This document shows, piece by piece, positions 38,077 to 51,459 of a stretch of DNA of 64,000 bases. The notes under the pieces were generated by a model. The model did not search any database and was not told where the DNA came from. It was given only the letters and a program-made list of their open reading frames with translations. Every line of letters starts with the position of its first letter. Position 1 is the first letter of the stretch. Both the position numbers and the translations under genes were made by a program. The DNA comes from an uncultured Ruminococcus sp. (lineage in GTDB: Bacteria; Bacillota; Clostridia; Oscillospirales; Ruminococcaceae), in the NCBI GenBank assembly GCA_902776945.1, contig CACYSH010000001.1, positions 22,882-86,881 of the forward strand. Reading direction: 5' to 3'.

Positions 38077-38409
38077 TTATATCAGCTTATCGGCGATGAA
38101 CTTTTTCAGCACCGCGTCAATGCTGCCGTTCACCTCGAATACACGCACGCCCTTGCTGATAAGATACGCCGCCGCGCCTTCGCCGATCTTCTGCACAAGC
38201 ACCGCGCCGCAGTCCGAAAGCAGCTCGATTATCTTGTCAAAGCGTGTGGTGTCATGTCCGAGCTGGTGCTGACACGCCGCAACCGCGTCCCGCACTTCGA
38301 GAAAGGTATAGTCTGTCTCGCCCAGCTCGTACACGCGGAAAAACTTTGCGTGACCGAAATGCTCGTTTATCGTGAACCCGTCAGATGTGGCAATCGCTAT
38401 CTTTGCCAT
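38077..38409 (-). CDS. NifX/NafY-like cofactor-binding protein (distal)
   Basis: 110 residues of the dinitrogenase iron-molybdenum-cofactor family: MAKIAIATSDGFTINEHFGHAKFF, with the usual HFG motif, and DCGAVLVQKIGEGAAAYLISKGV. In nitrogenase systems such proteins hold NifB-type or finished cofactor. It also carries cysteines at VAACQHQLGH and LLSDCG. Last gene of the nitrogenase-like operon, but separated from nifK-like by a hairpin and repeats, so expression may be reduced. GCGAGG precedes the ATG. Confidence 0.85.
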   Translation of the reverse strand: MAKIAIATSDGFTINEHFGHAKFFRVYELGETDYTFLEVRDAVAACQHQLGHDTTRFDKIIELLSDCGAVLVQKIGEGAAAYLISKGVRVFEVNGSIDAVLKKFIADKLI

Positions 38410-38424
38410 ATTTATTTCCTCGCT

Positions 38425-38462
38425 TTCAAAAACATCTCCCGCCGCCTGACGGGAGATATGTT
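38425..38462 (-). terminator. Hairpin after the NifK-like gene
   Basis: On the minus strand, stem ATCTCCCG / CGGGAGAT and flanking AACAT/ATGTT followed by TTTTG. It may attenuate expression of the distal NifX-like gene. Confidence 0.6.
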
Positions 38463-38561
38463 TCTTTTCTTTGAATTACATAAATGCGGTTCTGCTCTTG
38501 TAGGGAATATGCTGACCTTCGCAAATTAAAATCGGCTTCTTGCTATTTCTCATGAGGCCTG

Positions 38562-38622
38562 AACCGCTCAGACTCTGGGGGCAACCCTTCCTAAGACTTT
38601 TGGTATGCCTTTGTTTTGCGCA
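38562..38622 (-). repeat. Family A repeat fragment
   Basis: Contains CCTTCCTAAGACTTTTGGTA and TGCCTTTGTTTTGCGC, the right half of family A. Confidence 0.65.
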
Positions 38623-38641
38623 AGTTGACGGCATTCATTTG

Positions 38642-39982
38642 TTATTTATATGTCGCCAATGCGGTATTGTAAATATCCTCAATTACCCGCAATCCGCCCG
38701 TATATCCTACATAATTTGTCGTCAGCACAATGCGGTACGGCGTGGGACAGGCAATCGAAAGGAAGTCCGCATTTATCTCCGCCGCAAGCTCCTTATCCCA
38801 GCCGCTGCCTAAAATAAGCCCTCTGCCCTTGTGCTTCAAGCCGCGGATAACGTCCTGCATAGCGCCCGCGTCGGGGTCGAAATATACGGGAATCTCGCGC
38901 TTGTCGGAGGTCGCCCTGATGTCCGCCGCTATCTGCTCCTGATACTTCGCGGGAACATTATCGACAATAAACTGCTCCTTCGGCACAAGCCCCGTTTCAT
39001 GCAGCAGGAACTTCGTCAAGCCCACTACATACCCCGCGTCATGCAGGATATGCACATAGCTCGGCAGACCGTAGCGGAACTCCAGCAGGAACGTTGCGAG
39101 GTTGTCAAGCTCCTCGTAATAAGCCTTTTCCTCCTCCGCGATGAATGCGCGGGCTTTCTTCTCGTCGATCTCCGCGCCCTGTTCAAGCGCAAATTCAAGC
39201 ACGCCGTTTAAGAATTTCGTGGTCTCGTTCGCGCCGATAGGCAGATAGCCGAACTTGTAAAAAGGCTGACCGTATCTGCGCTGTAAATTTTTAACTATCG
39301 GCTCGCCGTACCAGGGAGAAATGAACACATTAAAGTTCGCCTTCGGTATCGTCTGCCATTCCTTAACGCCGCCCGAATGCGGTCCGAAGAGAATGTTAGC
39401 CTTTAAGCCAAGCCCCGCCAGCAGGCGCTTGTACTCTTTCAGATTGCCTTTCCAGAACTGATCCTGATAGGGGATAGAAGCTATTACGTTCACAAGATTC
39501 TTTTCCGAACGCGCCGGGTTATCGTCCTCAAAGCGGCTTACATACTGGTCGATTATCGCGTTGACGACCGCCGAATGCGAAACGTAGTTATTGGACTTGA
39601 AGCCCGATGTTTCAACATGGACGATCGGTCTGTCTTCCTCGTAAAGAAATTCGTCGGTAACGCTTGCCACATCGTCGCCCACGATACCCGCCGTGCAGCC
39701 CGTAACGACTACCTGCAAATCGGTATCAAGCACCTTGTAGGTGTTCTTTATAATATTGCGGAGCCTGTCGGTGCCGCCGAAAACTACCTCTTTCTCGCTG
39801 AAATTGGTGCAGGGCGCAGTCTCGCCGCCCGCGTAGCCCGCCGAGCGCTCAAAAAAGCCTTTTATCATAACGCCGCAGCCGGGTCCCGAATGAAGTATCG
39901 GCACGGCGCGGGGAATAGCTACCACCGTCTGCAAAGCGCCGATAGCGCAGGTGTAGCGCTCCTGTTCAATCAATCCTGCCAT
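38642..39982 (-). CDS. NifK-like nitrogenase component 1 beta subunit homologue
   Basis: 446 residues. P-cluster cysteines of NifK are kept: Cys12 (RYTCAIGALQ), Cys36 (HSGPGCGVM) and Cys96 (VTGCTAGIVGDDV), with the same spacing as in NifK (24 and 60 residues here). The N-terminal extension of true NifK is absent. An extra cysteine (APCTNFSEKEVVFGG) lies in the position of the second motif of this family, and GSGWDKELA closes the C-terminal part. With the NifD-like and NifH-like products it should form a two-component reductase. AAAGGAG precedes the ATG. Not true nitrogenase: sequence is shorter and NifE/N are missing. Confidence 0.9.
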   Translation of the reverse strand: MAGLIEQERYTCAIGALQTVVAIPRAVPILHSGPGCGVMIKGFFERSAGYAGGETAPCTNFSEKEVVFGGTDRLRNIIKNTYKVLDTDLQVVVTGCTAGIVGDDVASVTDEFLYEEDRPIVHVETSGFKSNNYVSHSAVVNAIIDQYVSRFEDDNPARSEKNLVNVIASIPYQDQFWKGNLKEYKRLLAGLGLKANILFGPHSGGVKEWQTIPKANFNVFISPWYGEPIVKNLQRRYGQPFYKFGYLPIGANETTKFLNGVLEFALEQGAEIDEKKARAFIAEEEKAYYEELDNLATFLLEFRYGLPSYVHILHDAGYVVGLTKFLLHETGLVPKEQFIVDNVPAKYQEQIAADIRATSDKREIPVYFDPDAGAMQDVIRGLKHKGRGLILGSGWDKELAAEINADFLSIACPTPYRIVLTTNYVGYTGGLRVIEDIYNTALATYK

Positions 39983-40013
39983 AAAAACAATTCTCCTTTA
40001 TAATGACAACTTT

Positions 40014-40168
40014 GTAAAAAGTGAATAGTGTATAGTGATTGCACCAACTTCGTTGGTGCCGTGAAAAGTTATGGTGTCCGCTAATGTGAGAAATATTAGT
40101 GCGGGGCGCAGCCTCCGCATAATATGCGCCGCAGGCGCACCTTAACTATTCACTATTCACTTTTAACT
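40014..40168. repeat. Family C element between nifK-like and nifD-like
   Basis: Left end GTGAATAGTGTATAGTG, right end CCTTAACTATTCACTATTC. The inside carries hairpins (CACCAACTTCGTTGGTG, GCGCCGCAGGCGC). It fills the gap between the two genes almost completely. Confidence 0.8.
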
Positions 40169-41634
40169 TATTTTCCAAGAAATGTGTAGGGTTCCTGTTC
40201 GAGCCACCACTTTGTGTAGGGGTTGGACGAGTGCTTCGCAAGGTTCTTTACGAACTCGTCGTTTTCTATCGTTTCGAGGATTCTCTCGCCGTAATTTACA
40301 AGCCCTTCGTAGCCCATGCCGAAATGTTCGTCGCCGATTAGCAGCGAGGGTATGCCGAGCTTCGCGCCCCACAGGGTCATGCCGCCGTGCCGCGCAAGAA
40401 GTATATCGGGCTTTATGCGGTTAAGCACATTCACCAGCTCAAATTCCTGCTTGTTGCAGACGTTGTAGTTCGGTACGTCGCCGTAGTCCTCTACTGTGTG
40501 GCGGAGCGTGTCGGAGCGTTCGTCCTCGTTGTCGTACTGCTGGTCGTGGTGGAAGATCGCCGCACCCTGCGGCTCCATGCCAAGCTCTTTAAGCAGTGCA
40601 AGCAGCGAATGTCCGTGCGACGCGCCCGCCGTAACGTAGGCGGTCTTGCCTTTCAGCTTTTCGCGCAGGGCTTCTATCTTCGGCAGATATTCCGCCTTTT
40701 TGCGGGCGAGTAAATCCTCTGCCTCTTTTTCCTTGCCGAGAATTTGCCCCAGCTCGCGGAACCAGCGGTCGGTCTGCGCTATGCCATAAGGGGGAGAATT
40801 GCGTATCTCCGGTACGCCGAAGCTCTGCTCCAGCGCCGCGCCGAGATAGCTGCCGAGCGTGGAGCAAGCCTGCACGGTCAGCGCCGCTTCGCTCGAATAG
40901 CTAAGACTATCCACCGTCGAGAAGGGCGTGATGTAATTCGGCTCGTAACCCAGTTCGCCGAACCATTCGCGGAAAATATCGCTGCCCCAGAAGTTTATAA
41001 CGTTTATGATATTGCGCTTTTGTCTTGCGGGCTTGATTATCTTTCGTGCAATGCCGTGATAGCCCGCGTCAAAGCCCGATGTCCACATCTTCGAGCGGAA
41101 ACCCTCGCAGAACACCGCCACAACCGGGATTCCAAGCTCCTTTTCGGCGGCGTTGGTAACGCTTTCAACGTCGTCGCCGATAATGCCCGCCGCGCAGGTC
41201 GTGATAACGAATATCGCCTTCGGCTTTGCGCGTTTAAATACCTCGCGGATAGCGGCTTCGAGCTTTTTGCCGCCGCCGTAAATGGTGTCTTTTTCCTCTA
41301 AGTTGGTCGAAAAAATCTTGCGCTGTGTGGGGTGGTCGAGCTGCCGCAGATAGGCGTTTACCCTGTATGTAAAAGCGAACTCATGCAGGCAGGTAGAGCA
41401 GCCGACGGGACCGTGCGAGATTATCGCCGCGTCCTGAATAAGCGTAAGCGTACAGGCGGCGTTGGACGTTCCGCAGCCTAAGCACTGGCTGAACGAGCGG
41501 TTTTTGTCCTTTAGCTTTCCGCACCCGGAGCAGGCGGAAACAAGCTCCTTGGCAGTCCCCTGAAAGCCCGTTATCGAGCCTAAGCGTATCTCGCGTATCT
41601 CGACTTCGGGTATATCCAAATTAACTTTACTCAT
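40168..41634 (-). CDS. NifD-like nitrogenase component 1 alpha subunit homologue
   Basis: 488 residues. Cysteines Cys54, Cys79 (ISHGPVGCS) and Cys147 (ITTCAAGIIGDDVESV) match the P-cluster ligands of NifD. Cys257 in VQACSTLGSYLGAALEQSFG aligns with the FeMo-cofactor ligand Cys275, and His437 (GDEHFGMGYEG) lies near the region of the cofactor-binding His. Additional cysteines at 35, 38, 51, 61 and 82 are not in true NifD and could bind another cluster. The enzyme is thus expected to hold a NifB-derived cofactor, unlike protochlorophyllide or F430 reductases. GAGGAG precedes the ATG. Confidence 0.9.
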   Translation of the reverse strand: MSKVNLDIPEVEIREIRLGSITGFQGTAKELVSACSGCGKLKDKNRSFSQCLGCGTSNAACTLTLIQDAAIISHGPVGCSTCLHEFAFTYRVNAYLRQLDHPTQRKIFSTNLEEKDTIYGGGKKLEAAIREVFKRAKPKAIFVITTCAAGIIGDDVESVTNAAEKELGIPVVAVFCEGFRSKMWTSGFDAGYHGIARKIIKPARQKRNIINVINFWGSDIFREWFGELGYEPNYITPFSTVDSLSYSSEAALTVQACSTLGSYLGAALEQSFGVPEIRNSPPYGIAQTDRWFRELGQILGKEKEAEDLLARKKAEYLPKIEALREKLKGKTAYVTAGASHGHSLLALLKELGMEPQGAAIFHHDQQYDNEDERSDTLRHTVEDYGDVPNYNVCNKQEFELVNVLNRIKPDILLARHGGMTLWGAKLGIPSLLIGDEHFGMGYEGLVNYGERILETIENDEFVKNLAKHSSNPYTKWWLEQEPYTFLGK

Positions 41635-41657
41635 ATTTAATCTCCTCGTTATTGAAA

Positions 41658-41882
41658 TAGTGTAGAGTGAATAGTGAATAGTGAATAGTTAAGGTGTCCG
41701 CTTCGCGGACGATATTATGCGGACGCAGGCACGAGCTTTGCTCGTGCAAGCGCCGCAAAAAAGTTGTTGCTCAAAAGGGATAATCAGTGCGCGGCGAAGC
41801 CGGCGCATAATACGCGCCGCCTGCATGAACGAGTTCATGCCTGCTCCTTAACTATTCACTATTAACTATTCACTATTAACTT
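41658..41882. repeat. Family C element between nifD-like and nifH-like
   Basis: Begins AGAGTGAATAGTGAATAG and ends CCTTAACTATTCACTATTAA with a nested repeat of the right end. Internal hairpins include GTCCGCTTCGCGGAC and GCACGAGCTTTGCTCGTGC. Confidence 0.82.
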
Positions 41883-41884
41883 TT

Positions 41885-42748
<864 letters not shown>

Positions 42749-42796
42749 TTACCTCTTTCATATTTATTGTAATTATTTTTATTGCTGTATAGCAAA

Positions 42797-43027
42797 AGTG
42801 AATAGTGTACAGTGAATAGTGTATAGTGTATAGTGAATAGTTAAGGTATCGCCTTGCGGCGATGCTGCGCGGCGATGACATGAACAAGTTCATGCAGCCG
42901 CGCATTGATTCGTTGAGCTCGTCAGTTTTGAGCCAAAAGTATGTAGTGAATATGATGCGGAGCGAAGCGAACGCAATAACGCGCCGCAGGCGCACCTTAA
43001 CTATTCACTATTAACTATTCACTTTTT
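42797..43027. repeat. Family C element between nifH-like and nifB-like
   Basis: Left end AAGTGAATAGTGTACAGTG, right end CCTTAACTATTCACTATTAA. Internal palindromes include ATGAACAAGTTCAT and GCGCCGCAGGCGC. The third successive gap of the operon filled by this family. Confidence 0.82.
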
Positions 43028-43040
43028 TAGCCTTTTGGTT

Positions 43041-43922
43041 TTATCCGTGCGAAAATGTATCCTTGCGGGACAGCCTTTGCAGGTCTATATAAATCTGCTC
43101 GCCGTAATCCTTCCCGCCCGGTATTCCTACCGCGTCAGCCCGGCACCGCTGACAATGCCTGAATACGTCTATATATTTCGACGCTTTCAAAATAGCCCTT
43201 TCAAGCTCCATGCAGTCAGGCTCCCGACTGTCTTTCAGCTTATGATTCGGTATCAGCGGGATAATGTTGTAAATGTCCGCCCCCGCTTCCGCGACCGTCC
43301 GCGCCACTTCCTCGATATGCTCGCCGTTAATATCGGGAACAAACACCGTGTTGACTTTGAGCGTTGTCCCCGATTCGCTTATCAGCCTTATGCCTTTGAG
43401 CTGCTGCTCAATAAGTATCTCAGCCGCTTCGATACCTGTGTAATGCCTGCCGTGCCACACAATGCCGTCGTTTAACTGCGCTTCTATCGCGGGGTCAACG
43501 GCGTTCACGGTGACGGTCAGCGAATCTATCCCGACCTCGATTATCTCCTGCGCCTTCTCGGCAAGCAGCAGACCGTTCGTACTCATGCACTTTATAAGCT
43601 GCGGAAATTCCTGCTTTATCAGCCTGAACGTTTCCAGCGCGTAGGGGCTGGCTAACGTGTCGCCGGGCCCCGCAATGCCCGCAACGTGTATCTCGGGACA
43701 GACCTCCAAAGCTCTGCGTATCGCGTCAAGCGCTTCGTGCGGAGTTATGACCGTCCTGCTCACGCCGGGTCGCACCTCGTAGCTGTTGAAGCTCCTCTCG
43801 CAGAAACGGCACTCTATATTGCAGCTCGGACTTATCGGAAGATGGATCCGCCCGTTATTGCTTTTTTCGCCCCGCGCAAAGCAGGGGTGTTTTGTCGTTA
43901 ATTCCTCGTATGAGACCGCCAT
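43041..43922 (-). CDS. NifB-like radical SAM cofactor-assembly protein
   Basis: 293 residues. Radical SAM motif CNIECRFC (Cys34, Cys38, Cys41), followed by HVAGIAGPGDTLASP, LCMSTNG-type KCMSTNGLLL, TVTVNAVDP and IPLIPNH, all characteristic of NifB, which builds the carbide-centred Fe8S9C NifB-co. A C-terminal CQRC pair is also typical. There is no fused NifX domain, as in archaeal-type NifB. ATG at 43922 is chosen because GGGAGGCGG lies nine bases upstream. It overlaps the NifX-like gene by 25 bases. Confidence 0.92.
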   Translation of the reverse strand: MAVSYEELTTKHPCFARGEKSNNGRIHLPISPSCNIECRFCERSFNSYEVRPGVSRTVITPHEALDAIRRALEVCPEIHVAGIAGPGDTLASPYALETFRLIKQEFPQLIKCMSTNGLLLAEKAQEIIEVGIDSLTVTVNAVDPAIEAQLNDGIVWHGRHYTGIEAAEILIEQQLKGIRLISESGTTLKVNTVFVPDINGEHIEEVARTVAEAGADIYNIIPLIPNHKLKDSREPDCMELERAILKASKYIDVFRHCQRCRADAVGIPGGKDYGEQIYIDLQRLSRKDTFSHG

Positions 43923-44269
43923 TTGTCCGCCTCCCATTGTTTTTCTTCCAGTAGCAGACAAAGCGCCTGCTCTATGTCAAGCGGTATCTGATACGCCGCT
44001 TTGCCATGCTCTCTTATGAACTGTAACGCGCCGGGACCTATCCTCTGCGCGACTATCGCCGAAACGTCCGAAAGCGTTTCTATCACCGCGTCGAATTTTG
44101 ATATGCTGTGCGTTCCGCCGTCGCACGGCGGAAGAGCATCGCGGCTCTCCAAAAGCTCGCATTCCTCTTTTTCGGTATCGAGCTTTGCTATGTAGAACTT
44201 GTCCGCCGCGCCGAAATGCCTGTCGATACGCACGCCGTCCGAGCTTGCAAATGCTATCCTGTAAATCAC
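43898..44269 (-). CDS. NifX/NafY-like cofactor-binding protein (proximal)
   Basis: 123 residues of the dinitrogenase iron-molybdenum-cofactor family: IAFASSDGVRIDRHFGAADKF with HFG, and VSAIVAQRIGPGALQFI. Probably carries NifB-co from the adjoining NifB-like enzyme. GTG start preceded by CGGAG. The 3' end overlaps nifB-like, so the two are translationally coupled. Confidence 0.87.
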   Translation of the reverse strand: MIYRIAFASSDGVRIDRHFGAADKFYIAKLDTEKEECELLESRDALPPCDGGTHSISKFDAVIETLSDVSAIVAQRIGPGALQFIREHGKAAYQIPLDIEQALCLLLEEKQWEADKWRSHTRN

Positions 44270-44316
44270 AATTTTTCTCCGTTATTCAATTTACTCCCGC
44301 AAATCTACATGGTTTC

Positions 44317-44344
44317 GCAAAACTATAAATGCGTTCATTTATAG
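44317..44344 (-). terminator. AT-rich hairpin after the cysteine-synthase-like gene
   Basis: CTATAAATG / CATTTATAG stem of nine pairs with a 4-base loop directly after the stop, followed on the minus strand by TTTTG. Weak; might partially separate the sulfur genes from the nitrogenase-like genes. Confidence 0.45.
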
Positions 44345-45250
44345 TTATTCAAATAATCCCGTGCTGAAATATCTGTCGCCTCTGTCGGGGAAAACTACCA
44401 CTATATTTCCCTTGTCGATCGTCTTGGCGAGCTTTAACGCCGCCGCCATAGCCGCCCCCGATGACGAACCCGCTATAATGCCCTCGTTCCGTGCAAGCAG
44501 CTTTACCGTCGCAAACGCTTCCTCATCATTGACCTTTATTACTTTATCAACAAGCGTGATGTCCATAGTGTCGGGGATAAAGTCGTTGCCGATGCCCTCG
44601 ATATTGTAATCGAAGTGTTCGCCGCCGCCAATGGTCGAGCCTTCGGGGTCGGCAAGGACTCCCTGAGTGTTTCCGTGTTCTTTTAAATACCTCACGATAC
44701 CTGTATAAGTTCCGCCGCTGCCCGCGCCCGCAACAAGATAGTCTATATCGCCTTTCAAATCCTCATATATCTCTTTGCCTGTGCCTTCGTAATGCGCGAG
44801 GGGGTTGTTCGGGTTCTTGAACTGCTCCAGCGATACCGAACCGGGTATCTGCGTTTTAAGCTCTTCGGCTTTGCGCACCGCGCCGAGCATACCCTCCGAG
44901 CGGGGAGTGTTTATGACCTCCGCGCCGAGCGCCCGCATGAGCGCCTGTTTCTCTGCGGAGAATTTTGTCGGGACGGTGAATATCACTCTGTAACCTCTGC
45001 CGAGTGCTGCGAACGCTATCCCCAGTCCCGTATTGCCTGCGGTGGCTTCAATTATCGTGCCGCCTTTTTTTAGCCTGCCCTCTTTTTCGGCTGCCCTGAC
45101 CATATACTCGCCGATACGGTCTTTAACGCTCCCGGAGGGGTTGTACATTTCGAGCTTTGCATATATATTAACGTCGGGGGAGACCCCCATATTTGTAAGG
45201 CGCACAAGGGGCGTATGTCCGATAAGCGCGTGCATATTTTCGTAAAGCAT
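44345..45250 (-). CDS. Cysteine synthase / MccA-like cystathionine beta-synthase
   Basis: 301 residues, PLP fold type II. PLP lysine in NPSGSVKDRIGEY, phosphate-binding EATAGNTGLGIAFAA, VAGAGSGGTYTGI and GSSSGAAMAAAL. The EATAGNTG form, instead of EPTSGNTG of CysK, is found in O-acetylserine-dependent cystathionine beta-synthases such as MccA of Bacillus subtilis. The preceding gene encodes a cystathionine lyase/synthase like MccB, so the pair can convert homocysteine to cysteine, or make cysteine from sulfide. It starts two bases after the upstream stop. Confidence 0.9.
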   Translation of the reverse strand: MLYENMHALIGHTPLVRLTNMGVSPDVNIYAKLEMYNPSGSVKDRIGEYMVRAAEKEGRLKKGGTIIEATAGNTGLGIAFAALGRGYRVIFTVPTKFSAEKQALMRALGAEVINTPRSEGMLGAVRKAEELKTQIPGSVSLEQFKNPNNPLAHYEGTGKEIYEDLKGDIDYLVAGAGSGGTYTGIVRYLKEHGNTQGVLADPEGSTIGGGEHFDYNIEGIGNDFIPDTMDITLVDKVIKVNDEEAFATVKLLARNEGIIAGSSSGAAMAAALKLAKTIDKGNIVVVFPDRGDRYFSTGLFE

Positions 45251-45251
45251 T

Positions 45252-46409
45252 TTATTTTACCTCGCTTGCGGCGATAGCCTGATCTATGTCGGCGAGAATG
45301 TCGTCAATGTTCTCAATGCCTATCGAAAGTCTTATAAGCCCGTCGGTAATGCCGACCTTTTTGCGTATCTCTTCGGGTATCGAAGCGTGCGTCATGCTTG
45401 AAGGGTGGCAAACGAGCGATTCCACGCCGCCGAGACTTTCCGCAAGCGTGACAAGCTGCAAGCTCTCGAAAAATACCTTAATATCGTAATTATCCTTAAG
45501 CTCAAAGGAAATCATCACGCCGCCGTTTTTCGCCTGACGCTTGTTGACCTCGTAGCCCTTGTCGGTCGGCAGTCCCGGATAGTGAACGCTCTTTACCGCG
45601 CTGTGCTTTGAGAGATATTCGGCAGCCTTTTCGGCATTGTAAACGTGCCTGTCAAGCCGCACGCCGAGCGTTTTTATACCCCTTATCAGCAAAAAGCTGT
45701 CGAACGGCGGAAGCACGCCGCCCGTTGAATTTTGCAGGAACGCGAGCCTTTCGGCAAGCTCCTTTGTCTTTACGACCGCAAGCCCCGCCACAACGTCGCT
45801 GTGACCGCCGAGATACTTTGTCGCGCTGTGGATAACGATGTCAGCGCCAAGCGTCAGAGGTCTTTGCAGATAGGGTGTCATGAACGTGTTGTCAACGATG
45901 ACGAGCAGTCCGTGCCTGTGGGCTATCTCTGCGACGGCGCGAATGTCCGTGACTGTCATGAGCGGGTTTGCGGGGCTTTCGATAAGCACCGCCTTAACGT
46001 CGGGGGTGATGTCTTTCTCGAAAGCCTGCGGATTTTCCGTGTCTGAAATAGTATAGCTTATGTTAAAGTGATTGAAAACCTTGTCAAGCAGGCGGAAGGT
46101 GCCGCCGTACACGTTCGAGGAAATAAGCACTCTGTCGCCCGAGTTCAGCAGGCTGAGGACTGCCGTTTCCGCCGCAAGACCGCTTGCGAAAGCGAATCCT
46201 GCTTCGCCGCCTTCAAGCTCCGCGATAAGGGCTTCGAGCGCCTCGCGGGTGGGATTGCCCGTGCGTGAATATTCGTAGCCGCGCATTTTCCCGAGACCGT
46301 CCTGCTTGAAGGTCGAGGTCTGATAAATCGGGACGTTTACCGCGCCCGTGCGTTCGTCAATTGAAATGCCGCCGTGTATAAGCGCGGTCTCTATATTTTT
46401 GTAGCTCAT
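45252..46409 (-). CDS. Cystathionine gamma-lyase/gamma-synthase family enzyme (MccB-like)
   Basis: 385 residues, PLP fold type I trans-sulfuration family. Signatures: YEYSRTGNPTREALEALIAELEGGEAGFAFASGLAAE, LISSNVYGGTFRL, ESPANPLMTVTDI, DNTFMTPYLQRPL and the PLP lysine in SATKYLGGHSDV. Lyase and synthase cannot be separated by sequence; the partner MccA-like gene argues for the reverse trans-sulfuration lyase. ATG at 46409 has AAAGGA nine bases upstream; another ATG two codons earlier is too close to it. Promoter and operator lie upstream (46485-46538). Confidence 0.9.
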   Translation of the reverse strand: MSYKNIETALIHGGISIDERTGAVNVPIYQTSTFKQDGLGKMRGYEYSRTGNPTREALEALIAELEGGEAGFAFASGLAAETAVLSLLNSGDRVLISSNVYGGTFRLLDKVFNHFNISYTISDTENPQAFEKDITPDVKAVLIESPANPLMTVTDIRAVAEIAHRHGLLVIVDNTFMTPYLQRPLTLGADIVIHSATKYLGGHSDVVAGLAVVKTKELAERLAFLQNSTGGVLPPFDSFLLIRGIKTLGVRLDRHVYNAEKAAEYLSKHSAVKSVHYPGLPTDKGYEVNKRQAKNGGVMISFELKDNYDIKVFFESLQLVTLAESLGGVESLVCHPSSMTHASIPEEIRKKVGITDGLIRLSIGIENIDDILADIDQAIAASEVK

Positions 46410-46484
46410 TTTCATCTTTCCTTTCGTTGTTATATTATTATCATATTTAACATATTGATTTACTATGATTTGTGCTGTGATTAT

Positions 46485-46513
46485 ATTCTACATCTTTTTT
46501 ATGCGTTTGTCAA
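46485..46513 (-). promoter_or_regulatory. Promoter of the sulfur/nitrogenase-like operon
   Basis: TTGACA, 17-base spacer, TAGAAT on the minus strand, about 70 bases before the MccB-like start. Confidence 0.65.
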
Positions 46514-46522
46514 TATCAAAAT

Positions 46523-46538
46523 GTGATAACGTTGTCAC
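46523..46538. promoter_or_regulatory. LacI-type operator GTGATAACGTTGTCAC
   Basis: 16-base near-perfect palindrome with a central CG, the form recognised by LacI/CcpA-family proteins. Its centre is 17.5 bases upstream of the -35 box, about position -52. Confidence 0.7.
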
Positions 46539-46725
46539 GGGCTGGAACGGTTCAGCGCGTGACAGGGTTTTACGCACGGGTGCGCAACGCTCATGCTCGT
46601 GAATGTCCCGCAAAACCGCGATTTTACAGCATTTTTGAATAGGTTAGTGCATATGGGGACAAGCCGCCGCCCTGTAAGTCTTATGATAGTTTAGCTTTGT
46701 GCAAGTTGACGGCATTGCTCATTTA
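46539..46725. repeat. Intergenic repeat fragment (family F)
   Basis: GCAAAACCGCGATTTTACAG and TTGAATAGGTTAGTGC match the copy near 26660. No gene. Confidence 0.55.
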
Positions 46726-47802
46726 TCAGATATAATACTCAGGCTCGTTAAGTTCCCCGAACGGACGGCAGCTCTCTCTTATAACGAGCGTTCCCTCTAC
46801 TTCAAGCCGCGAGACAGTCTTGTGACCGCCCTTTATCCTGTCAAGCAGCAGCATCAGCGCGAACCTCACCATTTCGTTTTTCGGCAATGCTATCGTTGTC
46901 AGCATGGGCTTGGTGTACTGTGCCGCGTCAATGTCGTCGCTCGAAATTATCGAGGGCAGATACCCCCTCGCCCGTCGCCTGTTCATCGCCTTTATCATGC
47001 CGACCGCGAGTATATCGTTTGCGCAGTAGATACCCGACGGCGGGTCGGGCAGCGCGGCAAAGTATTCAAACGCGGTAATGCCGTTGGCTTCGTTCGGGAG
47101 CGTGTCGCAGATGTAGTCTATGTCGGAGGAAAGTCGGCTGTCCGTCAGCGACCTCTGATACCCTGTGAACCGCGATTCGCTGTGACAGTCGCCGACATAG
47201 CCTATCCTGGTATGTCCCAGCTTTACGAGATACGCAATAGCCGTCTGCGCGATCCTGCTGCCGTCGCAAAGCACCTCGTCAACTTCGTAATTTGTGGAAT
47301 TGCGGTTTATCGAAACTATGTTCTTTTCCTTTGCTTTCAGCTGTTTGAGCGCCTTGCCGGTCACTTTGCCGACGATGATAAGCCCGTCCGAACGGTGTTC
47401 GCTTTCGCTGTAAAGGCTCTCGACAAGTGTGGTCAGCTTGTCGCCGCGTGCCGCCTTTTCATCGGAAAACTCCGCGCAGTGCCACACGTTCCCGACGATA
47501 CAGCCGCTTGTGCGCAGCTCCTTTTCGAGCAGCATCAGCAGCTCATCGTAAAAGGGGTCAGCCGCTTCGTGCGCGAACCTTGTCAGCAGTATATTTATGT
47601 GAAGGATTCGTTCGGCAGACCGCCCGCCGCCCGATCTCAGCGACCGTGCGTTTGCGTTTGGTATGTAGCCGATAGTCCGTGCCGCTTCAAGCACGCGCCG
47701 TTTTACGTCCTCGTCGGAGCATTTTCTCGAAGGGTCGTTAAGTATCCGCCCGACCGTCGAGACTGACACGCCCGTCATTTCCGCTATTCGTTTTAACGAC
47801 AT
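46726..47802 (-). CDS. LacI-family transcriptional regulator
   Basis: 358 residues. N-terminal helix-turn-helix MSLKRIAEMTGVSVSTVGRILN and hinge GYIPNANARSLRSG; then a periplasmic-binding-type effector domain with RSDGLIIVGKV, GHTRIGYVGDCHSESRF, PPSGIYCANDILAVG and VEGTLVIRES. ATG at 47802 follows AAAGGGTGATAAG. The gene sits between metY and the mccB/mccA/nitrogenase-like genes, and matching palindromes occur upstream of all three promoters, so it probably controls itself, metY and the operon. The inducer is unknown. Confidence 0.9.
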   Translation of the reverse strand: MSLKRIAEMTGVSVSTVGRILNDPSRKCSDEDVKRRVLEAARTIGYIPNANARSLRSGGGRSAERILHINILLTRFAHEAADPFYDELLMLLEKELRTSGCIVGNVWHCAEFSDEKAARGDKLTTLVESLYSESEHRSDGLIIVGKVTGKALKQLKAKEKNIVSINRNSTNYEVDEVLCDGSRIAQTAIAYLVKLGHTRIGYVGDCHSESRFTGYQRSLTDSRLSSDIDYICDTLPNEANGITAFEYFAALPDPPSGIYCANDILAVGMIKAMNRRRARGYLPSIISSDDIDAAQYTKPMLTTIALPKNEMVRFALMLLLDRIKGGHKTVSRLEVEGTLVIRESCRPFGELNEPEYYI

Positions 47803-47853
47803 ACTTATCACCCTTTCCGTGCATTTCTATAATATTCATATAGGATAAGTATG

Positions 47854-47882
47854 ATTATATCATTTTAAACCCGAGCTGTCAA
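47854..47882 (-). promoter_or_regulatory. Promoter of the LacI-family gene
   Basis: TTGACA, 17-base spacer, TATAAT on the minus strand. Confidence 0.8.
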
Positions 47883-47904
47883 GTAGGGTATTTGTAAACT
47901 TTCT

Positions 47905-47920
47905 GTGATTACGTTGTCAC
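47905..47920. promoter_or_regulatory. LacI-type operator GTGATTACGTTGTCAC
   Basis: Same 16-base palindrome with one change. Centre 30.5 bases upstream of the -35 box. Confidence 0.65.
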
Positions 47921-47924
47921 TGGG

Positions 47925-47957
47925 AAAAAGACATCTCCGCGCATCGGCGAAGATGTC
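47925..47957 (-). terminator. Hairpin upstream of the LacI-family promoter
   Basis: Stem GACATCT / AGATGTC with an inner CGC/GCG pairing; read on the minus strand it is followed by TTTTT. May stop transcripts arriving from metY. Confidence 0.55.
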
Positions 47958-47989
47958 CTTTAATATGTGTCTCATGAAATCATTGTAGA

Positions 47990-48135
47990 GTCGGGGCTTG
48001 CTCCGACCTGTGCGCCCGTTCGTGGAACAATGTGCCTGTTCGTGGGCGCACACATAGGTGCGCCCCTACACAAAATCGGGTTACATAACATATATTGTAG
48101 GGGTGCGCATTGCGCGTCCGTGAATGCTCGCAAAC
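47990..48135. repeat. Intergenic repeat (family D)
   Basis: GGGCGCACACATAGGTGCGCCCC is a hairpin at 48045-48066 (only part shown in words), followed by TTGTAGGGGTGCGCATTGCG. Related copies lie at 51578 and 62206. Confidence 0.6.
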
Positions 48136-48328
48136 TTGCGTAATTACGTTGTTTTAAGTTAACTATAAATGAGCGCTTTTCAGCAAACTGCATAAATAAT
48201 CATTGTTAGATGAAGTCCATACATCGGGACTGCGGGGGAAAACACGGACGCATACCCCCTCACGATATGCGTTACTATTTTTGGACAGTTAAGTGAAAAC
48301 CCTACGCTATTACTACAAAAATCATAAT

Positions 48329-48498
48329 GTAGTCGGGTAGTCGGCAGATTTCTCAAACTTTATAAAATACTTATCATTCTTTTTTTTGAAAGTTTACGAT
48401 TTTTACCGACTACCCGACTACAAATGCTCAAAACCATTGATATTACGGGGTAAAACCGTAGTCGGTACTTTCTGATTCTGCCGACTACAACCGACTAC
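48329..48498. repeat. Iteron-like cluster of the octamer GTAGTCGG
   Basis: Seven copies: two in tandem at 48329-48344, two in tandem inverted at 48406-48421 (a perfect 16-base inverted repeat with the first pair), one direct at 48458-48465 and two inverted at 48481-48488 and 48491-48498. Between the arms is an AT-rich centre. No coding region. Function unknown. Confidence 0.8.
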
Positions 48499-48573
48499 AA
48501 TGACGTATCGACTTTATTCCTCCCAAAAGTTCTTTTTCTGTTTATATATGGGAACTATGCGCAGTCTAATAGG

Positions 48574-48663
48574 GGCGGCGGGGGCAATGGCACGAACTAC
48601 GTTCGTGCAGCCACCCTACAAAGTCAACATACAATTATTTATGTCGTTTACTATAACTATTAA
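48574..48663 (+). repeat. Family E repeat
   Basis: GGCGGCGGGGGCAATGGCAC, the palindrome GCACGAACTACGTTCGTGC, then a CCCTACA...CAATTATTTATGTCG tail. A nearly identical copy is at 60868-60955. Confidence 0.78.
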
Positions 48664-48667
48664 CTTT

Positions 48668-49957
48668 TTAAAGCAGTCCTGCCGCCTTGAAAGCCTGTTC
48701 AAGATCGTTGATAAGGTCGTCAGCGTCCTCCAAGCCCGCCGAAATGCGGATCAGATTATGCGGTATATCCGCAAGCCTGAACTCCTCCTCATTAAGCTCC
48801 GAATGCGTGGTATTCGGCGAATCGACAATGAGCGAACGTGCGTCCCCGAGATTAACATGATAGTGGAAAAGCTCGATATTGTTGAGGAAAGCCGCCTCCT
48901 GCTCGGGCGTACCCTTTATGCCGAACGAAAGCACTCCGCCGCCGCCGTTCGGGAGATTCTTCTCCGCAAGCTCCCTGAACTTGTAGCTCTTTAAGGAGGG
49001 GTGACGTACCCACTCAACAGCGGGCGAGCTTTCGAGATACGCGGCGATCTTCGCGGCGTTGGCGCTCTGCTTTGCCACACGCTCCGAAAGCGTTTCAAGC
49101 CCGATTATGCCGAGATAAGCGTCCTGCGGCGAAAGCGCCGCGCCCAGCAGATTGAGGTAAACGAGAATCAGACGGAAGATAAAGAAGTTGTCGGGGAATA
49201 TCTCGTCGGGGGACTTGCCTTTCAGCATAACGATCTTTTCGTAGAACTGGGGATATTTTTCTTTTGTGTAATAGCTCATGTTGCCGTTGTCGAGGATAAC
49301 GCCCGCGATGATATTTCCGTGACCCGTCAGCGCCTTAGTCGCCGAGTATACAACGATGTCCGCGCCGTGTTCGAGCGGTCTGTAAAGGTAGGGCGTGGCA
49401 AGCGTGTTATCAACTACTACCGGAACACCGTGCCTGTGGGCGACTTCGGAAATGCCGTCTATATCGAGCAGATAGGCGTTAGGATTGGAAATGCTCTCGA
49501 CATAGACAGCCTTAACGTCGTCGGTTATCTCGGCTTCGAGCCTTGCGGGGTCAAGCACCGCGTCGGTCAGCTTTATCTTAATGCCAAGCTCGGGGAAAAG
49601 CCTGTCAAATGCGTCTATCGTGCCGCCGTAGAGATAGGGCGAGGCGAGTATAGTGCCGCCCTTTGCCGCGAGGTTCAGCAGGGTGTAGCTGATAGCCGCC
49701 ATACCCGAACCCACCGCGACGGCGTTCTTTGCGCCGTCAAGCGCCTTTACGCGCTCGGCAAAATAGTTTACGGTCGGATTGCCTACGCGGGTATAGAGGT
49801 AGCCCGCTTCCTTGTAGGTAAAGAGGTTCTGTGCGTGGTCGGTGCTTTTGAAGTCGTAAGCCGTCGTCTGATAAATGGGCGGCGAGATAGCGAGGTTGTT
49901 GTCCTGCGGATTATAGCCCGCCTTTATTTTTCTTGTGTCGAATTTAAGCTCTGACAT
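48668..49957 (-). CDS. metY: O-acetylhomoserine sulfhydrylase
   Basis: 429 residues, the usual length of MetY; this is longer than cystathionine synthases because of an insertion around GILDNGN...FPQFYEKIVMLKGKSP. PLP fold type I with YLYTRVGNPTVNYFAERV, VGSGMAAISYTLLNL, YVESISNPNAYLLDI, DNTLATPYLYRPL and the PLP lysine in YSATKALTGHGN. It makes homocysteine from sulfide, or methionine directly from methanethiol, with O-acetylhomoserine. AAAGGAAAG precedes the ATG. Methanethiol use would fit the nitrogenase-like C-S reductase downstream (inference). Confidence 0.94.
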   Translation of the reverse strand: MSELKFDTRKIKAGYNPQDNNLAISPPIYQTTAYDFKSTDHAQNLFTYKEAGYLYTRVGNPTVNYFAERVKALDGAKNAVAVGSGMAAISYTLLNLAAKGGTILASPYLYGGTIDAFDRLFPELGIKIKLTDAVLDPARLEAEITDDVKAVYVESISNPNAYLLDIDGISEVAHRHGVPVVVDNTLATPYLYRPLEHGADIVVYSATKALTGHGNIIAGVILDNGNMSYYTKEKYPQFYEKIVMLKGKSPDEIFPDNFFIFRLILVYLNLLGAALSPQDAYLGIIGLETLSERVAKQSANAAKIAAYLESSPAVEWVRHPSLKSYKFRELAEKNLPNGGGGVLSFGIKGTPEQEAAFLNNIELFHYHVNLGDARSLIVDSPNTTHSELNEEEFRLADIPHNLIRISAGLEDADDLINDLEQAFKAAGLL

Positions 49958-50031: not shown

Positions 50032-50047
50032 CTGATAACGTTGTCTT
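50032..50047. promoter_or_regulatory. LacI-type operator upstream of metY
   Basis: CTGATAACGTTGTCTT. Its centre is 17.5 bases upstream of the -35 box, the same distance as at 46523. Confidence 0.65.
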
Positions 50048-50136: not shown

Positions 50137-50150
50137 TGATAACGTTGTCA
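50137..50150. promoter_or_regulatory. Second LacI-type operator upstream of metY
   Basis: TGATAACGTTGTCA, centre 104 bases from the first site. Confidence 0.55.
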
Positions 50151-50358: not shown

Positions 50359-51459
50359 TCAGCCGAGAACGATTTTCCAGCCTGCGGCTTTTTTCTGCAC
50401 CATAACCAGCTCTTCAACGTCGATAGTGCCGTTGCCGTCCAGGTCGGCGGCTTTTTTAACGCTTTCGGCAACCTTCCAGCCTGCTGTGGCTTTCTGCATA
50501 AGAACGATGTCGTCAACGTCTACCGCGCCGTCGCCGTTGAGGTCGCCGGGAACGGCGCTTGCGCCGTCAAGGGCGATAAATGTAAAGCCGTTGTTTTTGG
50601 CGTAGGTCTCGGCGGCGGTGCCTTTGCAGCCTTTTATGGTAAAGCCTTCGGAACAGCCATTGAACGTATAGTCGCCAATGCTTGTAACGCTTGCAGGGAT
50701 AGTTATGCTTGCAAGGTTTGTACAGTCGCGGAAAACGTTTTGCCAAATAGTAGTAACGCTGTCCGGGATAGTTACGCTTTCAAGACTGCTGCAATCGTAG
50801 AAGGTCATGTCGGCAATGCTTTTAACGCTGTTCGGGATAACTACGCTTGTGAGTTTACGGCAGCTGCTGAAAGCGCGGGCGGCTATTTCCCTGACGCTGT
50901 TCGGGATAGTTACTCCTGTAAGGTTCTTGCAGCCGGAAAAAGCGCCTGTGCAGATTATCTCAACGCTGTCGGGGATAATAACGTTTCCTTCCGCTGTCTG
51001 TCCGTCAATAAGATTGTTGTTGACAATTACAAGGGGATTTTCCTTTCTCTGCGCTTCAAGCCAGTCAGTCCCCATAAAAGCGGTACGGTCTAAATACTCA
51101 ACAGTCTCCGCGAAGGTCACTTCGGAAATGTTATTAAAGCCGTAAAATGCGAAATCGGATATGCTCATCACTCCGCTTTGTATGACTACCTTAACAATAT
51201 CATCCCGGTATGCGCTCCAGGGTCTTGAATCGTTCTTTCCGGTCATGCTGAACCAGTCCATATACCCCGTGCCGCTTATGGTGAGCGTACCTTCGCTGTC
51301 AAGCGTATATGTCAGATTATCCCCGCATTTGCCGCTGTCAACGATAGTCGCCGCGTTTGCCGTCAGCGAAAAGCCCCCGAATGTCCCCGTCGGGAGTGCC
51401 CCCGCCCCCGAAAATACGACCGCCAGCGCCGCCAGTCCGTTGATAAAACGTTTGTTCAT
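50359..51459 (-). CDS. Secreted LRR protein with dockerin
   Basis: 366 residues. Signal peptide (FINGLAALAVVFSGAGALP..., cleavage near ANAA). Residues about 40-120 form a small beta domain (LTYTLDSEGTLTISGTG), then about six BspA-type LRR units with IPNSV..I...AF..C pattern. The C-terminus is a type I dockerin with two calcium-binding repeats (GDLNGDGAVDVDDIVLMQK and DLDGNGTIDVEELVMVQK), each followed by a KxAAGW-like segment. Dockerins bind cohesins of a cellulosome scaffold, so this product is probably attached to a cell-surface complex. ATG follows GGAG-type site; terminator downstream. Confidence 0.9.
   Translation of the reverse strand: MNKRFINGLAALAVVFSGAGALPTGTFGGFSLTANAATIVDSGKCGDNLTYTLDSEGTLTISGTGYMDWFSMTGKNDSRPWSAYRDDIVKVVIQSGVMSISDFAFYGFNNISEVTFAETVEYLDRTAFMGTDWLEAQRKENPLVIVNNNLIDGQTAEGNVIIPDSVEIICTGAFSGCKNLTGVTIPNSVREIAARAFSSCRKLTSVVIPNSVKSIADMTFYDCSSLESVTIPDSVTTIWQNVFRDCTNLASITIPASVTSIGDYTFNGCSEGFTIKGCKGTAAETYAKNNGFTFIALDGASAVPGDLNGDGAVDVDDIVLMQKATAGWKVAESVKKAADLDGNGTIDVEELVMVQKKAAGWKIVLG

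Follow-up and report, generated by a model that had tools for sequence, protein, structure and literature searches.

A nitrogenase-like operon among sulfur genes of an uncultured Ruminococcus: a candidate C–S bond reductase from a sister clade of methylthio-alkane reductase

The closest described relatives of the system reported here are the methylthio-alkane reductase (MAR) MarBHDK of Rhodospirillum rubrum (PDB 9fmg and 9d9u; PMC12552129), the isethionate reductase (Isr) IsrBHDK of Rhodobacter capsulatus (PMC11423573), the group IV-A (Nfa) proteins of Endomicrobium proavitum and the molybdenum nitrogenase NifHDK. Statements cited to these two papers and to PMC9147875 refer throughout to the parts of each that were available. 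Isr is nitrogenase-like, serves sulfur assimilation through C–S cleavage and has a radical S-adenosylmethionine (SAM) partner (PMC11423573). In that paper Nfa forms a clade neighbouring Mar and Isr, with no role assigned to it. Elsewhere, in the portions of the literature at hand, group IV-A is labelled nitrogenase, and groups IV to VI are predicted to include sulfur roles and are commonly present in multiple copies (PMC9147875). Here we analyse ten open reading frames (ORFs) on the minus strand at positions 38077–49957 of a 64,000-nucleotide stretch of DNA (the window) from an uncultured Ruminococcus sp. (GenBank GCA_902776945.1, contig CACYSH010000001.1, positions 22,882 to 86,881). All ten are found where an initial annotation, made from the letters of the DNA, had put them, and the names it gave fit Pfam and NCBIfam profile matches. 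We think it likely that the operon encodes an assimilatory C–S bond reductase that works in a MAR-like manner and feeds methionine and cysteine synthesis; it falls in a sister clade of MAR, here called clade W.

The D subunit gene (40168..41634, minus strand) encodes a nitrogenase component 1 protein (PF00148, 303 bits). Its best matches in the PDB are R. rubrum MarD (9fmg and 9d9u, 451 and 450 bits, near full length, 42–43% identity), and the best nitrogenase alpha chain, NifD, follows at 141 bits. The K subunit (38642..39982, minus strand; PF00148, 212 bits) likewise matches MarK over nearly its full length (9d9u_C, 381 bits), with NifK next at 67 bits. Among NCBIfam profiles D scored best against NifE (185 bits) and nitrogenase alpha (183 bits), with BchB at 65.5 and CfbD at 48 bits; K scored alike against BchB (82 bits) and NifK (80 bits), its best solved match being MarK. 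The initial annotation had said that D and K proteins lying within the Bch/Chl or Cfb clades would speak against its proposal. By score D is far from those profiles and nearest to MarD, and we have ruled out a Bch/Chl or Cfb identity on the profile and PDB scores of D and K only, the tree containing no Bch or Cfb rows. An AlphaFold model of D, built from 24 sequences (mean predicted local distance difference test (pLDDT) 84.6, predicted template modelling (TM) score 0.86), is nearest to 9fmg_A (TM score 0.91, root mean square deviation 2.0 Å); among the 50 structure matches listed, 47 are nitrogenase or NifEN chains with query-normalised TM scores of 0.64–0.70. Residues 37–39 and 47–52 of the model have a pLDDT below 50 and were kept out of structural interpretation.

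The H subunit (41885..42742, minus strand; PF00142) is a NifH-like Fe protein with Fe4S4 ligands C99 and C134. It scores above the cut-off of the nifH equivalog TIGR01287 (457.8 against 394 bits), and its nearest solved relative is Clostridium pasteurianum NifH (1cp2, 465 bits), MarH (9fmg_D) reaching 280 bits. By score it is therefore not a MarH-type Fe protein. The B protein (43041..43961, minus strand) is a NifB-like radical SAM protein without a C-terminal NifX domain. Its best NCBIfam match is nifB TIGR01290, under the cut-off (263 against 344 bits), and the best solved NifB matches at 267 bits over 273 residues. It carries HPC, CNIECRFC, EVRPG, AGPGD, TVTVN and CQRCRADAVG, which we take to be NifB-type motifs.

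The metal ligands reported for MarDK are C32, C56 and C121 of MarK and C66, C91, C158 and C270 of MarD, and the proposed MAR hallmark is a cofactor held by Cys270 and His429, with Arg428 in loop I (PMC12552129). All six P-cluster cysteines are present in the window: C12, C36 and C96 of K and C54, C79 and C147 of D align with C32, C56 and C121 of MarK and C66, C91 and C158 of MarD. The cofactor ligands and hallmark correspond to C257, H416 and R415 of window D and are kept in 25 of 25 clade W rows. The cysteine inventory of the initial annotation (C99 and C134 of H, C12, C36 and C96 of K, C54, C79, C147 and C257 of D, and CNIECRFC of B) is thus confirmed in full; what it left out was the MAR-type cofactor histidine, H416 beside R415, and the operator described below. 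It had also asked for a pocket able to hold a cofactor of the Fe8S9C type; the modelled fold of D, with its aligned ligands, fits both a P-cluster and such a site.

The likeness extends to the surroundings of the cofactor, for which residue roles are given in PMC12552129. In MarD numbering window D has C66, C91, C158, C270, C73, W195, F199, H375, R428 and H429, and all of these are retained in 25/25 W rows of a 69-row D set. Two second-sphere residues differ: MarD Gln74 and His194 are Thr (T62) and Met (M183) in window D. Both are present in 13/13 M rows (the clade of MarD, see below) and in 0/25 W rows. The substrate of clade W therefore probably differs from that of MAR proper.

N2 reduction is said to require NifD Val70, Gln191 and His195 (PMC12552129), which in W are replaced by Cys-Thr/Met, Trp and Phe, and the column of the NifD cofactor ligand His442 holds Gly in 24 W rows, Glu in one and His in 0/25. 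The window and the W rows therefore lack the four residues that, together with NifEN, mark molybdenum nitrogenase. The initial annotation had further pointed to extra cysteines in D. C51 and C82, each three residues from a P-cluster ligand (C54 and C79, respectively), are invariant in W (25/25 each), and C61 is shared with MAR; C35 (12/25) and C38 (14/25) are not conserved and were dropped as a metal site. Outside W, the position of C82 holds Cys in one of seven D3 rows and nowhere among D2, M, X, Y, Z and Nif. C51 is also Cys in 6/8 D2 rows, 4/4 Y rows and the single Z row, and in 0/13 M rows.

The careful D tree was made from 34 rows of the 69-row set, which in turn omits 12 of the 47 rows of a first tree. 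Clade W takes up nine rows with support of 100/100 and holds the window, R. albus, Kineothrix, Acetobacterium, Pectinatus, Coriobacteriales, Treponema and a putative E. proavitum row. R. rubrum MarD lies in a separate clade, M (seven rows, 100/100). Forcing the window into M makes the tree 113 log units worse (approximately unbiased (AU) test, p 9.6e-43), which excludes MAR proper. On this tree window D is a member of a sister clade to MAR and not MAR itself. W and the neighbouring group D2 make up one side of the tree (99/98). Besides these the tree has clades X, Y and the deep-branching D3. The H tree has long branches and was used solely to note two H lineages. Relative to the initial annotation, which had pointed to MarHDK, two things change: the window falls outside the MAR clade and its Fe protein is NifH-like. 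The broader suggestion made there, that a NifB-cofactor reductase salvages organic sulfur, gains support from the MarDK match, from the fold and ligands and from the operators considered next, with the sister clade taking the place of MarHDK itself.

The palindrome TGACAACGTTATCA was found by motif search (minus strand) perfectly conserved upstream of mccB (46524..46537), with one mismatch upstream of lacI (47906..47919), and twice upstream of metY, once with one mismatch (50033..50046) and once perfect (50137..50150). Allowing up to two mismatches, the window holds 14 matches, spread over 12 places, where 0.26 would be expected. Whole genomes searched with up to one mismatch gave 20, 17, 10 and 13 matches, against 0, 1, 2 and 1 for a control, in the source genome (G000), G001, G012 and R. 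albus 8, respectively; palindromic sites can be counted twice in these totals. All four perfect sites of the source genome adjoin sulfur-assimilation genes. Besides those at metY and mccB, one lies 150 bases before a run with hemA-like and siroheme-synthase-type genes, and on its other side, about 0.6–0.8 kb off, are a sulfate ATP-binding cassette (ABC) binding protein and CysT, both above cut-off. The fourth is 153 bases before a serine acetyltransferase gene (cysE-type; EpsC-type above cut-off), and a MoeB/ThiF-type gene comes next. R. albus 8 also has four perfect sites: one in front of metY, two in front of mccB and one 107 bases ahead of metE (1077 bits, above cut-off). The nif-like operon and the sulfur genes thus have operators in common, in line with the co-regulation that the initial annotation had named as a test of its idea. 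The LacI-family protein encoded in the operon (46726..47811, minus strand; PF00356 and PF13377) is the candidate binder of TGACAACGTTATCA.

The setting recurs in relatives. Proteins of some clade of the superfamily are encoded in 464 of 524 candidate stretches drawn from 84,980 species genomes, and the 80 named loci examined here are the best of the 464 and so lean towards the window. Neighbouring genes were called by bit-score thresholds against proteins of the window or of loci L094 and L030. K is present in 79/80 of these loci, and metY, mccA or mccB in 57 of the 59 that are at least 12 kb long (68/80 overall). We divided the loci into a Ruminococcus set (L047–L079 and L081, 34 loci) and the remainder (L080 and L082–L126, 46 loci). 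Outside the Ruminococcus set 26/32 loci of at least 12 kb also encode a binding protein of the NlpA/MetQ, NMT1 or OppA type. The transporter families were established in L094, L030 and L031.

Taken together, these data allow a route to be proposed. NifB would make an Fe8S9C-type cofactor, which the NifX-like proteins may carry and which would enter D without NifEN, to be held, by alignment, by C257 and H416. The Fe protein H would pass electrons through the P-cluster of D/K at the expense of ATP, as in its homologues, and a thioether or related organosulfur compound would be split reductively, with methanethiol or sulfide as the probable product. Going by family roles, MetY would convert methanethiol or sulfide to methionine or homocysteine, and the mccA- and mccB-like enzymes would take the sulfur on to cysteine. 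A LacI-type repressor acting at the TGACAACGTTATCA sites may co-regulate metY, lacI, the operon and other sulfur-assimilation genes.

Several observations weigh against this proposal. To our knowledge no member of clade W has a known activity, metal content or mutant. Replacement of the second-sphere His194 and Gln74 means that MAR substrates may not be used, and the positions vary within W itself (194: Ile 10, Val 10, Met 5; 74: Thr 15, Met 10; 25 rows). The window Fe protein is nearer to NifH than to MarH, and AU tests do not reject the grouping of W with Nif (p 0.06) or of the putative E. proavitum row with Nif (p 0.053), so that the long Nif branch, and with it the root, may lie beside W. 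Eight of the window's 12 operator-like places, with one or two mismatches, lie outside the three promoters, four of them inside ORFs of the operon. The perfect site of G001 stands ahead of the gene of an unassigned membrane protein. Among 18 one-mismatch loci examined about ten are inside ORFs and five in metY, lacI or mccB promoters. The LacI gene is found at 27/34 loci of the Ruminococcus set and 0/46 of the others, so the regulator is uninformative for other lineages. A transporter binding protein is encoded at just 1/27 Ruminococcus-set loci of at least 12 kb (1/34 overall). Apart from one tRNA, Rfam gave no match in the window, and no sulfur riboswitch was matched there or in seven related loci.

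A first alternative is that the operon encodes a group IV-A nitrogenase that fixes N2 without NifEN, the sulfur genes being passengers or serving cluster assembly; in a mild form of this explanation the enzyme would be bifunctional. Window D groups with the putative E. proavitum row, to which it is 71–72% identical, and no NifEN was found, so that clade W apparently comprises the Nfa/group IV-A proteins; the comparison was with this row, published NfaD accessions lying outside it. E. proavitum incorporates 15N2 and has group IV genes as its only nif-like genes (PMC9147875), a claim that other papers, as far as available, repeat as an exception among group IV organisms. The putative E. proavitum genome (G479) contains a single D/K pair, its only two PF00148 matches, and the D has the W residues and lies inside clade W (100/100). 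Heliophilum fasciatum reduces acetylene without classical nif genes, and its diazotrophy is credited, by prediction, to an Nfa homologue (PMC9147875). N2 reduction has moreover been reported for NifEN and NifB carrying a bare L-cluster, the window H passes the nifH cut-off, and the putative E. proavitum genome has a NifV-profile match of 319 bits (cut-off 463). The NifV cut-off was reached in none of six genomes, including G044, whose VnfD, NifE and NifK pass theirs, which makes NifV a weak discriminator. Against N2 fixation stand the replaced NifD residues, the operators that the operon shares with sulfur genes, and the reported failure of MAR, whose cluster type is the same, to reduce N2 (PMC12552129). 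In the source genome (4.0 Mb, 93% complete) a PF00148 profile search found neither NifE nor NifN, upholding the absence claimed by the initial annotation, and the best NifV match is just 65 bits. The six PF00148 matches there are D, K and four distant proteins on three small contigs, one of which scores 65 bits against nifE (cut-off 505), the other three having been run against Pfam only. The putative E. proavitum pair itself sits in a sulfur setting: the run, all on one strand, reads metY, NMT1 protein, SsuB-like, D, K, MetQ-like piece, NifX, mccB, mccA, B, NifX, H. On balance we regard a nitrogenase as quite unlikely.

A second possibility lies within the C–S reductase proposal, namely that the enzyme is functionally MAR and takes the methylthio-alkane substrates of the R. 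rubrum enzyme, from which MAR frees methanethiol, the split between the clades reflecting drift only. The identical metal ligands, the Arg-His hallmark, the 42–43% identity and the linkage to metY all agree with this. The tree does not, since joining the window to M is rejected (p ~1e-42), and neither do the His194 and Gln74 columns, which separate M from W completely. W- and M-type D/K also occur in one locus in Pectinatus haikarae (L098), P. cerevisiiphilus (L103) and Ruminococcus UBA7013 (L079); these are the three of 14 genomes searched for a second D that were chosen because both clades had already been seen there, and an M-type D was found in 3/11 of the others, R. albus 8, R. albus AR67 and Ruminiclostridium sufflavum, the last identified through coordinates identical with those of G118, the source of an M row. 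Coexistence of W and M in several genomes argues against redundancy with MAR, and we consider MAR function possible but doubtful. A third possibility is that the substrate is an oxidised organosulfur compound such as a sulfonate or sulfoxide, reduced in the manner of isethionate reductase with release of sulfite or sulfide. NMT1/SsuABC-type transporters occur at 23/46 W loci outside the Ruminococcus set and in the putative E. proavitum genome, and Isr works with SsuCAB (PMC11423573), yet MetNIQ-type transporters are common too (MetQ at 14/46). IsrD has one P-cluster cysteine, lacking the other two, and no cofactor ligands, and IsrB is not NifB-like (PMC11423573). The window keeps all ligands and a NifB-like B, by which an identity as Isr is ruled out; reduction of such an oxidised compound seems unlikely to us.

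If the preferred reading, a C–S reductase of clade W, is extended to every group IV-A enzyme, that of E. proavitum included, these proteins would form a second, undescribed C–S reductase family, itself part of a wider radiation in which at least five clades related to MAR each have their own substrates. We put this forward tentatively, at a little under an even chance. In the literature searched we found no statement that group IV-A enzymes are C–S reductases, although North et al. (2020), Zheng et al. (2016) and Murali et al. (2025) may hold earlier remarks. The E. proavitum NifD is reported, in the available text, to be without the cofactor His; in the putative E. proavitum D a His is found in the MAR-type loop. 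If the extension is true, the 'missing' ligand has moved to the Arg-His loop of MAR type, and many gut 'diazotrophs' called from nifH and nifB would be sulfur scavengers. Surveys of gut and rumen that equate nifH with nitrogen fixation would be affected, as the window H passes the NCBI nifH cut-off. An E. proavitum enzyme with a MAR-type active site in a sulfur operon would also open the N2 claim to direct test. Either N2 can be fixed by a MAR-like protein whose cofactor is free of homocitrate, or the claim needs reassignment. Cellulose-degrading R. albus may be a rumen source of methanethiol and small hydrocarbons, and clade W would offer natural variants of C–S-cutting enzymes with different pockets.

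Set beside the known systems, the window operon resembles MarBHDK in the near whole-length similarity of D and K, the six P-cluster cysteines, the Cys with relocated His, the Arg-His pair, the NifB-like partner and the sulfur context. It differs in clade, in the replaced His194 and Gln74, in the invariant extra C51 and C82, in its NifH-like H and in having two NifX-like proteins, mccAB, a LacI gene and a shared operator, MAR regulation lying outside the comparison. With the putative E. proavitum system it shares the clade, metY, mccAB, B, H and two NifX genes; the putative E. proavitum H is of another lineage (49% identity), the run includes an NMT1-type transporter and no LacI gene was seen in it. 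With molybdenum nitrogenase it has in common the architecture, the H protein and NifB; the sulfur operon and operator, the lack of equivalents of NifD His442, Val70, Gln191 and His195, and the failure to find NifEN set it apart.

The remaining genes of the operon are all on the minus strand. The two NifX-like proteins match PF02579: NifX2 (38077..38409; 80.3 bits), a small NifX/NafY-like cluster-binding protein that stays below the nifX cut-off (TIGR02663, 59 against 112 bits), and NifX1 (43898..44269; 58 bits), whose ORF overlaps the 5' end of the nifB-like ORF. The names metY, mccA and mccB rest on best matches below curated cut-offs. The mccA-like gene (44345..45250; PF00291; TIGR01136, 338 against 344 bits) encodes a pyridoxal phosphate (PLP) enzyme of the cysteine synthase/cystathionine beta-synthase family, and the mccB-like gene (45252..46415; PF01053; best NCBIfam PRK07671, 554 against 594 bits) one of the cystathionine gamma-lyase/homocysteine desulfhydrase family. 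The MetY-like O-acetylhomoserine sulfhydrylase (48668..49957; TIGR01326, 456 against 495 bits) is the second PF01053 protein. Upstream of metY, at 50359–51459, an ORF reads as having a dockerin-like C-terminus, which fits a cellulosomal Ruminococcus.

The closest named relatives of window D are in Ruminococcus metagenome-assembled genomes (up to 99% identity), Ruminococcus sp. YE71 (96%) and R. albus 8, AR67 and KH2T6 (94%), and the source genome is closest to R. albus. Of 391 genomes sampled from the class, 24, among them the source genome, gave a D-like match at E<=1e-50, some having two to four. The phylum to which the L115 genome belongs, recorded as Elusimicrobiota, was covered with 294 genomes, 10 of which had a match at E<=1e-20. 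Searched with D as query, the source genome gave the W pair and one weak distant match, and nothing else. The second D copy of Kineothrix is of Y type, and P. haikarae (G447:C1:343373-359621; L154, L098) has four MAR-superfamily D genes, two Y, one M and one W, within about 16 kb. Between K and nifX of the putative E. proavitum run (L180:12956-13207) the MetQ-like piece has 83 residues; the MetQ-like protein of L094 has 311.

A second nitrogenase-like set was seen on contigs C205, C276 and C168 of the source genome (L027–L029) and in G001:C34 (L034). It includes NifH-like proteins (about 50% identical to window H) together with several distant PF00148 proteins, and C276 and G001 additionally encode a radical SAM protein. 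The set is possibly Isr-like or of another group. In L030 (G001:C15) and L031 (G008:C103), D2 paralogue D/K pairs of the same genus, 54–55% identical to window D, adjoin Opp-type transporter genes and metY, or MetNIQ-type genes, respectively, with no H or B within the fetched stretch. The D3 set (L032, L113, L142, L147, L156, L177 and L178) keeps the four cysteine ligands, and in 6/7 a His aligns with MarD His429; Arg428 is absent in 7/7 and Trp195 in 6/7, and some adjoin NifX, cysteine-synthase-like or ABC genes. Finally, MAR-superfamily operons are carried on plasmids of Candidatus Chlorohelix allophototropha (L127), with transposase genes in the flanks, and Treponema saccharophilum (L128), with two D/K pairs, which suggests mobility.

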